Below are positions 18,861-23,868 of a stretch of DNA of 24,863 nt, in pieces. This DNA is from a virus, in IMG/VR virus record IMGVR_UViG_3300020167_000006, positions 1 to 24,863 of that record; one strand, given 5' to 3'. The stretch's first letter is position 1. Every line of letters starts with the position of its first letter. Position numbers and translations under genes: made by a program. A model generated the notes under the pieces. That model did no database searches. It saw only the letters and a list, made by a program, of their open reading frames with translations, and had not been told where the DNA came from.

Positions 18861-20446
18861 TAGTGTCCCATCCAGCCAGTATTAACGTGGTGGTTCTGAG
18901 CGTTGACCCGCCGATCCGGTGCCTCTAGCTGCACTTCTTTTGGCCAGACCAGTTTAAGGTTAGGCTCCTCAATCCGCGCAAGGGAGTCGATCATGTCCTT
19001 GTGGGCGCTAACAGGGAACGGCAGGTACTCCTGTTCAATGAAGTCATGCACCAGGTTCCGCGTGTTTTTCTCGTAATCGGTTACATAAAAACTCTTGGGA
19101 AAGTAAATCCTCCCCTGCTCAAATATCGGAATTAGCCGCGAGATACGGTCATCCTTACCCGTCCTGCCCGCAACCTCCATGATATCGAAGCGATACCCCT
19201 CAGCCTCTTGCACGGACTTGATGTGCTGGATATCGGCCATCAACCCGTACTGTTCCCACCGCACCTGCTTGGGTTTCCATTTGCGATGCAGTTCAATCAG
19301 CCGAGCCGCACGCTCAGTCAGGTTCAGCCGATCACGAACCATGTCCAGCACATAATAGTTCTGGTCTTGACCCAACCCGATCACCCACATCGCCGTGTAG
19401 TCAGAGTCCTTGCGCTTGGAGTTTGCTGAGTCCACCAAAATGTAGTTGTTCGTCTTCGTTGGTTTCTTGGTGTAATACCGCAACCACTCGCGCTGAAACC
19501 CCTGCAACGAATCGGCCTTCGGGTTCAGCAATATCTGCGCGGCATAGGTGTACGGCCCCATGTCCTTGCGCTTCTGGTGGTGCGTCAGGTCGTCCCACAC
19601 AATTGAGTGACCCTCTTCAACGCCACCAATCCTGCCCGGATACTCCCGCGCCTTCAGCGTCCCGCGATCCGTCAGCGTTTTATAGGCATCGTTGAAGTGC
19701 CACCGCGTACCGGCCCCGCGTTTTATCCCCGGCGTTGTCCCAAGGTTATACGAACGCTCCATCTCCACCATGACCTTGGCGATCATTTCGGGAGTTGTCA
19801 CGGAACCCGCTACCACAACGTCATCGTAGTGCAGCACCTTGAAGTGCTTCGATGTCGGCTGGCCGTCCACCAACCCCCACGCCTCCACCGTTGCCTCATT
19901 GGGGTTCGACTTACGCTTAACGATAATCCCGTCATCCTCCGACCACTTCGCAGCCTTACGGATATCCTTGCCGTACAGCACATCGGGGAACGCCGCGTGC
20001 AGCGTAAGGTTCTCTTCCAACTCGCGCATGATCTGACGCAAAAACGCTTTCGCAATGGGCCGCGTGTGGGAGAAAATCCCGATTGTTATCTCGGGGTCTT
20101 TCAGGATGCTCTGAATCGACAACCCAAACGTAATCGTGGAGGACTTCCAGTGTTCGCGTGACCACAGATCCAGATACCCGTTGGGGTTCGCCTCGACCTC
20201 GCGGCACCGATCAAAAGCAAACGAGTTATCCACAAACCCCGGTCGTCCGACGCACGGCAGCATATCCACGCGATTACACACCCGCACCATCAGATAATAC
20301 AAATCCGCGCAGACCAGCATCCTCACGACCTGGTTCAGTTTCCCCTGCTGCCGCCCGATCTCCTCCAACTCATCCCAATACCGAATCGCGCCTTCGACCG
20401 GCAGCGCGTGCAGCATCTTCACCTGCTCTGGAGTCAATTCGCTCAT
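18860..20446 (-). CDS. terL: Terminase large subunit (packaging ATPase/nuclease), 528 aa
   Basis: Motor that cuts concatemeric DNA and pumps it through the portal. The ATPase half has a Walker-A-like element at 94-104 (LWSREHWKSST), followed by SIQSILKDPEITIGIFSHT, and a Walker B at about 203-210 (KVLHYDDV). The RNase-H-like nuclease half has D339 (ILVDSANSKRKDSDYTAMW), E398 (VRWEQYG) and D484/D487 (AHKDMIDSLAR). Length is close to P22 gp2 (499). ATG at 20446 overlaps the TerS stop (ATGA) and lacks a ribosome site. The Walker A lacks the classic GKT and is of the variant W-x-K-S type found in many phage terminases. Confidence 0.94.
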   Translation of the reverse strand: MSELTPEQVKMLHALPVEGAIRYWDELEEIGRQQGKLNQVVRMLVCADLYYLMVRVCNRVDMLPCVGRPGFVDNSFAFDRCREVEANPNGYLDLWSREHWKSSTITFGLSIQSILKDPEITIGIFSHTRPIAKAFLRQIMRELEENLTLHAAFPDVLYGKDIRKAAKWSEDDGIIVKRKSNPNEATVEAWGLVDGQPTSKHFKVLHYDDVVVAGSVTTPEMIAKVMVEMERSYNLGTTPGIKRGAGTRWHFNDAYKTLTDRGTLKAREYPGRIGGVEEGHSIVWDDLTHHQKRKDMGPYTYAAQILLNPKADSLQGFQREWLRYYTKKPTKTNNYILVDSANSKRKDSDYTAMWVIGLGQDQNYYVLDMVRDRLNLTERAARLIELHRKWKPKQVRWEQYGLMADIQHIKSVQEAEGYRFDIMEVAGRTGKDDRISRLIPIFEQGRIYFPKSFYVTDYEKNTRNLVHDFIEQEYLPFPVSAHKDMIDSLARIEEPNLKLVWPKEVQLEAPDRRVNAQNHHVNTGWMGH

Positions 20447-21069
20447 ATCGGCCCGAGCGTACTCGGTTCGTGCAGCGTCCGCCGGGGAGGACTATCGGGA
20501 GGGATAATCCCGTGCTGCTCACGCGTTCCGCTGGGCGCGGACTCTCGCACCACCTCCCCGGCTTGGCTAACTTCGCTTTCATACTCTCGCTGTGCAACGA
20601 TTTCCACCGCAACGGGGTCGCTTTCCGCAACGACCTCGCCGCCAATAATCTTTTCCGCCGCAACCGGCGCGGCCAACCTCGCCAGCAACGCACCGGCCAG
20701 CCCGATCAATCCCGCATCGGCCCCAAACGCCGCCGACTTCTCAATCGCTACCCGGTCGCCATACTGCTCCCGGCTCCACACCTTCGCCTCGTCCCGCCGC
20801 CACGCACTCCGCAGCTTCGCAACCGCAACATCGTCCGGCATCGCCTGATCCACAATCTCCCCGCCTTCGTGGAACCGCACTTCCGCCCGCGCCTTCAACG
20901 CATCCTGATACCCGCCCCACCGATCATCCGAGGCCCGCAACCAGTTCAGCACCGCACCCAACGTCCAGATCCGGTTCCCACACGCCCCCACCAGCCCGAC
21001 CTCCACCACATCATCAAAAAACGCCTCCAACTCCTCCTCGTCCACCCGAGTAAGCGAGTCCCGCGTCAT
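20443..21069 (-). CDS. terS: Terminase small subunit, 208 aa
   Basis: Assigned from sequence pattern and position just before terL. Helical DNA-binding-type N-terminus FFDDVVEVGLVGACGNRIWT, then LGAVLNWLRASDDRWGGYQD, ALKARAEVRF, HEGGEIVDQA, and KLRSAWRRDEAKVWSREQYGDRV. The last is the K-L-R-x-x-x-R-x-x-x-A-K-x-x-x-Y-G-D-R pattern that ends the core of many small terminases. The C-terminal third is Ala/Glu-rich and Pro-rich. I chose ATG 21069 because GGAG lies 4 nt upstream; ATGs at 21087 and 21138 are weaker alternatives. Confidence 0.8.
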   Translation of the reverse strand: MTRDSLTRVDEEELEAFFDDVVEVGLVGACGNRIWTLGAVLNWLRASDDRWGGYQDALKARAEVRFHEGGEIVDQAMPDDVAVAKLRSAWRRDEAKVWSREQYGDRVAIEKSAAFGADAGLIGLAGALLARLAAPVAAEKIIGGEVVAESDPVAVEIVAQREYESEVSQAGEVVRESAPSGTREQHGIIPPDSPPRRTLHEPSTLGPI

Positions 21070-21335
21070 CCGGCTCCGTATCCCCATAGCCCCGTTATAC
21101 GCCCCAATCCGACTGACCGCAACCACAGCCCATACCATCCCCTACCCCGCATCCAGAAAACGCAGCCTGACCGCCTTGCCGCCAATCCTTGGGCACTTTG
21201 CGGAAATGGCAAAACCTGAATTTTTTTGCGCGCCAAAAATTTGCGAAAGGTATGACGGGGAGTCCCAGACCTGCACACGGTCGGCCAAGGCCCTTGCTCC
21301 CCCGGCCCGCCGGAATCAGCCCGACGAGCCAGCAT

Positions 21336-21363
21336 TGACCACGGCTGACCACGCTTGACCACG
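21336..21363. repeat. Three TGACCACG direct repeats, exactly 10 bp apart
   Basis: TGACCACG occurs at 21336-21343, 21346-21353 and 21356-21363, each separated by two bases, so all copies face the same side of the helix. It lies about 270 bp upstream of the terS start. Arrays like this bind oligomeric proteins. A TerS recognition (pac-type) site or an operator for the late block are the two main options. Confidence 0.7.
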
Positions 21364-21539
21364 GTCGCCCGGCGGATTTGCCTGCGATCCGGGCCGAAAA
21401 CGCTGTAGCCCCTATGATGCATGGGAGCGATTGCTTATGCGTATCATGCGCTTAGCATTGCGTCCGGCCTTTATTCGGCATCTATTCGCCCCTTGTTGCT
21501 GGCCTGCAACTGTGTCCAGGTAGCTGCGCCATGCAAATC

Positions 21540-21579
21540 CATTGCGGCACATGCGGCAGCATTGCGGAACATTGCGAGA
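21540..21579. repeat. Four phased CATTGCG-type decamers
   Basis: Back-to-back ten-base units CATTGCGGCA / CATGCGGCAG / CATTGCGGAA / CATTGCGAGA. More CATTGC or GCAATG copies flank them (for example 21456). Helically phased direct repeats suggest a protein array along one DNA face. Confidence 0.65.
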
Positions 21580-21604
21580 CTCCGCACATGCTGAATTAGG
21601 CGGT

Positions 21605-21632
21605 TTCACAATGAGCCGCAATGCATTGTGAA
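21605..21632. promoter_or_regulatory. Operator-like 9-bp inverted repeat
   Basis: Perfect dyad TTCACAATG (21605-21613) and CATTGTGAA (21624-21632) with a 10-nt spacer. The right part also contains the palindrome CAATGCATTG (21619-21628). A third half site TCACAATG is at 21752-21759. Arm length and spacing fit a dimeric helix-turn-helix or ribbon-helix-helix repressor. Confidence 0.6.
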
Positions 21633-21682
21633 GCATTGCCAGAATCTCCTAAAAGGAAAGTTAAGAGAAAGGAAGGAATTTT

Positions 21683-21817
21683 ATGCATATAAATCACTTA
21701 AAAAGAATTTACTCTCCTGGGCGCGTGCAATGGATTACAAGGTTTCGACCGTCACAATGTGTCGCAATGCGCTCCAATGCATCGCGCAGACTATATGCCG
21801 AGAATCCGACACATTGA
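21683..21817 (+). CDS. Candidate 44-aa basic peptide in control region
   Basis: ATG at 21683 has a strong purine-rich ribosome site (AAAGGAAGGA) 5-6 nt upstream, the best in the region. The 44-residue product is Arg-rich with two Trp/Phe clusters (MHINHLKRIYSPGRVQWITR, then FRPSQCVAMRSNASRRLY). No family recognised. Because it runs over the ATGCAT repeats, coding potential may be accidental; a leader peptide is another possibility. Confidence 0.35.
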   Translation: MHINHLKRIYSPGRVQWITRFRPSQCVAMRSNASRRLYAENPTH

Positions 21818-21851
21818 CGAAACGCCGACACTTTCTGACGAGATGCCGACA
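21806..21851. repeat. Three CCGACA iterons about 20 bp apart
   Basis: CCGACA at 21806-21811, 21825-21830 and 21846-21851. The first two copies continue as CA(T/C)(A)TT... and end in GACGA, giving imperfect units of 19 and 21 bp. Roughly two helical turns apart, just before the early genes, in the manner of replication iterons or tandem operators. Confidence 0.55.
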
Positions 21852-21977
21852 GGTGGATTGTGGGCGATTTATGCATATGATTGATTTGCTAGGGAAAATT
21901 ATATGCATCAATCTGGCACGGGTTATGCATACAGACAGGTGCAGGAATCGACTAACGAACGGGATAGGGGCGACAAA

Positions 21978-22220
21978 ATGAACCAAGAGTACACGGCAAA
22001 CCGCGACATGATGGAAGCCACGGCACAGGCAATTGCCGAGGATATTGCTTATCAAGCGGCATTAGACACGTCGAATGCTGCATTGAAAGTGTATCAAGTA
22101 GCTGTGCAGGCATACCGCAATCGCACAATCGGCGATGCCGAATTCATTGCGGCACAGGATATTTACCGCGCTGCCGAACATGCTTTCGACCTAGCTTTCG
22201 CGGCAATAGCTAACGGCTAA
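21978..22220 (+). CDS. First early gene, 80-aa helical protein, unknown function
   Basis: ATG at 21978 with AGGGG about 7 nt upstream; a longer frame from 21903 starts on an ATGCAT repeat without a ribosome site and is rejected. The product is Ala-rich and almost entirely helical (MMEATAQAIAEDIAYQAALD, then AALKVYQVAVQAYRNRTIG, IYRAAEHAFDLAFAAIA). The acidic and hydrophobic faces suggest a small oligomeric helical bundle. Being first behind the control region it may be an early host-takeover or regulatory protein; this is inference. Confidence 0.65.
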   Translation: MNQEYTANRDMMEATAQAIAEDIAYQAALDTSNAALKVYQVAVQAYRNRTIGDAEFIAAQDIYRAAEHAFDLAFAAIANG

Positions 22221-23452: not shown

Positions 23453-23665
23453 ATGAATAAATTTTACGTTACAGGTGGTGCAGATCAATACTGGATGCCG
23501 ACAAAAGCGCGGACGTTTCGCGGCGCGTTACGAGCGGCAATGGCGCGGTATCAGAGTGCCTACGGCGGGCGGATTGAGGTGGCCGAGTTGCTGGACGGCG
23601 AGTACTGGGTTGTTGCGATCAAGCGCGGCTTTAACTCGTGGGATTATGCGGGAGCCGGAAAATGA
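23453..23665 (+). CDS. Small early protein, 70 aa
   Basis: ATG at 23453 with GGGGG 5 nt upstream. Sequence: KFYVTGGADQYWMPTKARTF, helix GALRAAMARYQSAYGG, then beta pair RIEVAELLDGEYWVVAIKRG and WDYAGAG. This compact beta-alpha-beta arrangement is typical of small phage proteins of unknown function. The stop overlaps the next start (ATGA). Confidence 0.68.
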   Translation: MNKFYVTGGADQYWMPTKARTFRGALRAAMARYQSAYGGRIEVAELLDGEYWVVAIKRGFNSWDYAGAGK

Positions 23666-23868
23666 CCGATCCAAAACCGAGAATGAAGCGCCTCTGCCTC
23701 ACGCTCGACGACTATACGATCTTGGAGGCCAAACGCCGAGGGGACGGCAACCTATCGCTAGGCATCCGGCGGGCGTTCAGTCCTCCCCAGGTTCTCGGCC
23801 CTGACGCTTCAGGAACTCAGGATGCTGCGCCGCACGATACTTCTCCACGGCAATCTGCGCCGATATAA
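23662..23868 (+). CDS. Ribbon-helix-helix-like small DNA-binding protein, 68 aa
   Basis: ATG at 23662 overlaps the previous stop (ATGA). Residues about 8-39 look like an Arc/CopG-type unit: strand MKRLCLTLD, helix 1 DYTILEAKRRG, turn GDGN, helix 2 LSLGIRRAF. The L-x-L-D-D-x-T/x and G-D-G-N-L-S-x-G-I-R-R-A pattern is common in phage/plasmid RHH regulators. It would bind DNA as a dimer and is a candidate for the operators in 21400-21860. The Pro/Ser-rich tail after residue 40 is antisense to the DUF3987 gene's end and may be unstructured. Confidence 0.68.
   Translation: MTDPKPRMKRLCLTLDDYTILEAKRRGDGNLSLGIRRAFSPPQVLGPDASGTQDAAPHDTSPRQSAPI

Follow-up and report, generated by a model that had tools for sequence, protein, structure and literature searches.

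A probable sigma-54-type early promoter with a putative superimposed operator in the ATGCAT cluster of an uncultured phage

The conserved part of a dense ATGCAT cluster in an uncultured phage is best read as a sigma-54-type, enhancer-dependent early promoter with an operator superimposed on it, a reading that we consider probable from sequence comparison. The DNA analyzed, referred to here as the window, is a 24,863-nucleotide phage fragment from IMG/VR (IMGVR_UViG_3300020167_000006). Its late genes, beginning with terminase, extend leftward from 21138, and its early genes, which are small, extend rightward from 21978. Of the region between these two blocks, the right half is probably the control unit of the early operon.

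Results

Composition and conservation of the ATGCAT cluster

All seven ATGCAT palindromes of the window were found within 514 bp (21417-21930), as the original prediction had stated, and none occurs elsewhere in the 24,863 b (Table 1). The total for the whole window was at chance level (7 seen, 7.7 expected). The grouping of the sites was examined by randomization: none of 2000 random placements gave seven sites inside 514 bp, and in 2000 dinucleotide shuffles the region never gave seven sites (mean 0.94, maximum 6). It was also borne out that three of the palindromes lie inside an identical nonamer, TTATGCATA (at 21681, 21869, and 21923), which has no further copy in the record.

Five IMG/VR contigs (L004-L008), the terminases of which share 98-99% identity with the window's terminase, were used as near relatives. 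L005 and L006 are the same over the aligned region, and hence the six phages aligned, the window included, comprise five distinct near genomes. The alignment showed that the seven sites are not one set, and that the trio at 21871, 21903, and 21925 stands apart from the other four. The trio was present in every near relative, with spacings of 32 and 22 bp (both 22 bp in L005/L006), or about three and two helical turns. The multi-site operator originally proposed fits three of the seven sites, which every near relative retains at fixed, helically phased positions over the putative promoter. The other four lack the conservation in related phages that the original prediction called for: most near relatives are without three of them, and L005/L006 are without the fourth. 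These four sites lie in less conserved neighbouring segments, and their role may be different from that of the trio.

Table 1. Positions of the features discussed, in window coordinates; negative numbers are relative to the predicted transcription start
Feature	Position	Strand	Description	Conservation or evidence
Small terminase subunit	20443..21138	-	First late gene, divergent	Pfam Sf6_terminase 6e-8; PHROG 1482
ATGCAT 21417	21417..21422		Outside promoter unit	Alignment: kept in 3 of 4 other distinct relatives, missing in L005/L006
ATGCAT 21621, 21683, 21777	21621..21782		Exchangeable cassette	Alignment: first two common to L008 only; third in window only
Three tandem 16-bp dyads TGMCGR-N4-YCCGACA (repeat family D3)	21796..21851 (starts 21796, 21815, 21836)	+	Putative enhancer (UAS), -144 to -89	
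ATGCAT site 1 (TATGCATA)	21871..21876		Centre -66 (-56 in L005/L006)	In all near relatives
ATGCAT site 2	21903..21908		Centre -34, abuts -24 element	Invariant in all near relatives
ATGCAT site 3	21925..21930		Centre -12, overlaps -12 element	Invariant in all near relatives
Sigma-54-type -24/-12 promoter core TGGCACGGGTTATGCATA (putative)	21914..21931	+	GG at -25/-24, GC at -13/-12; transcription start predicted near 21940	
First early gene, 80 aa	21978..22220	+		Swapped for other genes in some relatives
68-aa RHH-like protein	23662..23868	+	Candidate TATGCATA-binding repressor	

The cassette at about 21541-21788 contained CATTGCG/CACAATG repeats in the window and L008, and a different segment with TTGGTCAA-type repeats was found in L004-L007. 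The swapped repeats could be matched to different binding proteins.

Many 6-bp palindromes were avoided in the near genomes, and ATGCAT was among them, with 6 copies seen and 23 expected outside the control region; retention of the trio is therefore likely to be under selection. Strongly avoided palindromes in the near-relative contigs included GGGCCC, CGTACG, TGCGCA, and CGCGCG, which suggests restriction pressure. ATGCAT is the motif of the methyltransferase YhdJ in enterobacteria, and the sites might act as an epigenetic switch, in which a host orphan adenine methyltransferase of the YhdJ type would modify them and so alter binding at the promoter. Selected retention of a motif that is scarce elsewhere in these genomes would agree with such a switch. 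However, the stronger avoidance of many other palindromes points to general restriction avoidance, and methylation needs no fixed helical phasing, so that we regard the switch as very improbable.

Replication origin as an alternative explanation of the repeats

The original prediction had also seen the signature of a replication origin in this region. The repeats would then be initiator-binding iterons with an AT-rich unwinding region at about 21660-21710, with early transcription merely starting nearby. The neighbouring iterons that had been noted are real (21796-21854), and several repeat families and dyads do occupy the non-coding DNA that separates the divergent gene blocks. The cumulative GC-skew minimum was located at 21539 in the window and at 25203 in G003, inside or no more than 0.5 kb from the promoter core. 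However, although the minimum falls in the region, it coincides with the point where transcription diverges, which explains it equally well, and a skew switch independent of gene orientation was not obtained. No DnaA box was found in the control region of the window, the cassette repeats are exchanged between near relatives, and the conserved elements show the geometry of a promoter. The origin signature therefore found no specific support, and we consider an origin an improbable explanation of the cluster.

Two other non-coding elements were observed on the terminase side of the region. A block at 21240-21310, upstream of the small terminase gene, had 59 of 71 columns invariant, and a similar-looking block was seen in L149; it is possibly a packaging (cos/pac) site. 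Repeats of TTGACCACGG, 20 bp apart, adjoin the small terminase gene at 21335-21364 and are partly kept in relatives; these are possibly terminase-binding sites.

A probable sigma-54-type promoter core in the near relatives

The probable early promoter centers on the 18-bp block TGGCACGGGTTATGCATA, which was identical in all six phages aligned; that is, 18 of 18 columns were invariant in the five distinct near genomes. Within it TGGCACGGGTTATGCA, likewise invariant, has GG at -24 and, after ten intervening bases, GC at -12. At sigma-54 promoters, the GG and TGC of the -24/-12 elements are the conserved positions (PMC3844500). The core matched the extended consensus YTGGCACGrNNNTTGCW at 15 of 16 positions, the exception being A for T at -15, and its -12 element is ATGC, versus the preferred TTGC. 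When the window was scored with a sigma-54 matrix, the weights of which are approximate and follow the published consensus, the core was the best site (18.2, versus 13.3 for the next). A sigma-54-type site occurs once per genome, and no sigma-70 promoter was found. Site 3 of the trio is contained in CTGGCACGGGTTATGCATA, and the 18 invariant columns begin at TGGCAC. The predicted start lies 38 nt upstream of the ATG at 21978, which is preceded by AGGGG.

The gene immediately after the promoter varies: its product has 80 aa in the window, 54 aa in G003, and 70 aa in G001. The dyads, the trio, and the promoter keep their positions while the first early gene is swapped.

The exact 18-mer was also found outside this group of phages. 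The copies in viral contigs L086, L089, and L091 are in a different context and were taken as chance or unproven, and a match in L101 was judged to be chance. The copies in an unrelated phage pair (L087, 2016-2033, minus strand; L093, 1956-1973, minus strand) were likewise taken as chance or unproven. These two lie in an apparently non-coding stretch adjoining TATGCAG...CTGCATA, and represent either chance or a putative second sigma-54-type promoter.

Sigma-54-type sites at the homologous locus of distant relatives

The loci of more distant terminase relatives were also searched, with the near ones left out. The region tested was the strand opposite terminase, 0.5-2.5 kb upstream of terminase, which was chosen after the first cases had been seen. 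Sites scoring at least 15 numbered 9 in 227 kb at this divergent early-strand locus versus 6 in 2.89 Mb elsewhere (19-fold, p = 2e-7, some of the relatives being mutually related). At a score of at least 14.5 the early strand gave 9 sites with the correct spacing, while six other spacings gave 1-3 sites. The late strand gave no site with the correct spacing, and 30 column-permuted matrices gave at most 2 sites. Only a minority of the distant relatives carried a sigma-54-type site, and many were without one.

Among those with a site, L015 had a perfect one between a terS-like gene and the first early gene. L022 and L027 had YTGGCACGGTATCTGCW sites 40-50 nt before an early start codon, and L149 had CTGGCACGCTTCTGGCT at that position. 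TGTGAC/GTCA half-sites were present about 80-180 bp upstream in L015, L022, L027, and L149, and inverted TGAC/GTCA half-sites were enriched upstream of several distant-relative promoters. No ATGCAT-type cluster was found in the control regions of the distant relatives.

These data also bear on another explanation, namely that the TATGCATA sites bind a positive regulator of phage or host origin, and that the TGGCAC block belongs to its site or to a phage-specific promoter and is not a sigma-54 element. Such a regulator would suit the invariance of ATGCAT at three positions, its overlap with the putative -12 element, and the substitution, in this genus, of ATGC for the preferred TTGC. However, the spacing-specific enrichment of sigma-54-type sites was obtained in relatives that have no ATGCAT cluster, and the site occurs singly, unlike phage-polymerase promoters. 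A positive regulator of this kind seems unlikely to us.

Dyads at enhancer distance

Upstream of the trio, the three tandem dyads (TGCCGAGAATCCGACA, TGACGAAACGCCGACA, and TGACGAGATGCCGACA) begin at -144, -125, and -104 in each of the five distinct near genomes, and the sequences searched contained no further copy. Sigma-54 enhancers mostly lie about 80-150 bp upstream of the promoter (PMC3844500). The dyads are thus at the usual distance of a sigma-54 enhancer and constitute a putative activator site. One dyad strand recalls published NifA/PilR-type sites (PMC6058289), which we treat as a lead only. The dyad array was not found in a search of 369 genomes from one candidate host class. The GAFTGA motif of sigma-54 activators was not seen in the phage sequence available, and consequently the activator would be a host protein.

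The trio as a putative operator and the 68-aa protein

Because the TATGCATA trio is helically phased and overlaps the -12 element, we infer that it is a repressor operator, at which a bound repressor may exclude the sigma-54 holoenzyme. The original prediction had named the RHH-like protein at 23662 as a candidate binder. This 68-aa protein was found in all six phages, its near-relative copies being 67-85% identical with a nearly invariant N-terminal half. Its gene and the trio co-occur in all near relatives, and no significant match to the protein was found in the other loci fetched. By eye it resembles a ribbon-helix-helix protein, and the structure model, a weak one (mean pLDDT 69), has two helices following an extended segment. 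However, the RHH assignment gained no match in the profile library and no usable match in the fold search, and the fold is putative. The candidacy is thus favored by the distribution of the protein and not by its fold assignment, and it is the best candidate for the TATGCATA-binding repressor.

About 5.0-5.6 kb beyond the promoter core, L095, L096, L098, and L100 also encode small HTH proteins of two types (49-52 aa, Pfam HTH_28). They are absent in G001 and are possibly another regulator.

Other early genes and the host

A 210-aa protein, similar by eye to a DNA polymerase sliding clamp, was observed about 0.4-1.2 kb after the promoter core in L095 and L099; G001-G003 have this clamp-like protein, and the window does not. 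Pfam matches identified an integrase-like tyrosine recombinase in L096 (early region of G005) and L099, and in L096 also a C5 DNA methyltransferase. On account of these genes, the phages may be temperate.

Deposited phages gave no DNA match, and their terminases were only about 25% identical. The spaced ATGCAT/TGGCACG pattern had no match in genome contigs, so that neither an integrated copy nor a host was obtained. Terminase relatives in bacterial genomes were found in Gallionella, Castellaniella, Desulfovibrio, Paraburkholderia, and others, a spread too broad for the host to be named from them.

Discussion

The following mechanism is proposed for the early promoter. Host RNA polymerase carrying sigma-54 would occupy the promoter in a closed, inactive complex. 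From the dyads, an enhancer-binding protein of the host (an AAA+ activator) would loop over and open the promoter upon a host signal, and the early genes would start. In a step of which we are less confident, the promoter would be shut off by a repressor that binds TATGCATA and covers the -12 element together with the flank of the -24 element; the 68-aa RHH-like protein of the phage itself may be this repressor.

Phage early genes are normally transcribed by host polymerase with the housekeeping sigma-70, and no activator is needed. An early promoter of the sigma-54 type would, if the reading is true, be silent until an ATP-driven activator answers a host signal, and would tie the decision of the phage to a signalling pathway of its host. 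More broadly, the early operon of an uncultured clade of tailed phages may be controlled by host sigma-54 together with an enhancer-binding protein of the host, and the onset of infection or induction would then depend on the signalling state of the host. In the genus studied here, the promoter would be fused with a phage operator, one element joining host signal and phage feedback. We advance this broader proposal tentatively and rate it at slightly below an even chance. No phage precedent for a sigma-54 early promoter was found in the open-access literature searched; most subscription journals lie outside that literature, and a precedent may exist.

The control region can be compared with three known systems. 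It is like lambda-type early control regions in lying between divergent late and early blocks, in having a putative promoter overlapped by repeated candidate operators, and in its exchangeable neighbouring segments. However, lambda-type early control uses sigma-70 early promoters with operators, whereas neither a sigma-70 promoter nor a recognisable CI/Cro gene was found here. The operators of small RHH repressors (Arc, Mnt, CopG, and omega) are likewise short palindromic boxes with helical spacing over a promoter, and a small conserved RHH-like gene is present in the early block. In contrast to those operators, the promoter here is of the sigma-54 type, and both the RHH fold and the binding of the 68-aa protein are putative. 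Compared with bacterial sigma-54 (RpoN) promoters with upstream activator sites, the putative promoter differs in being a phage early promoter, in the ATGCAT palindrome superimposed on its -12 element, and in that no activator was found in the phage sequence available. However, it shares with them GG at -24 and GC at -12 at the exact spacing, tandem dyads at enhancer distance, and a short leader.
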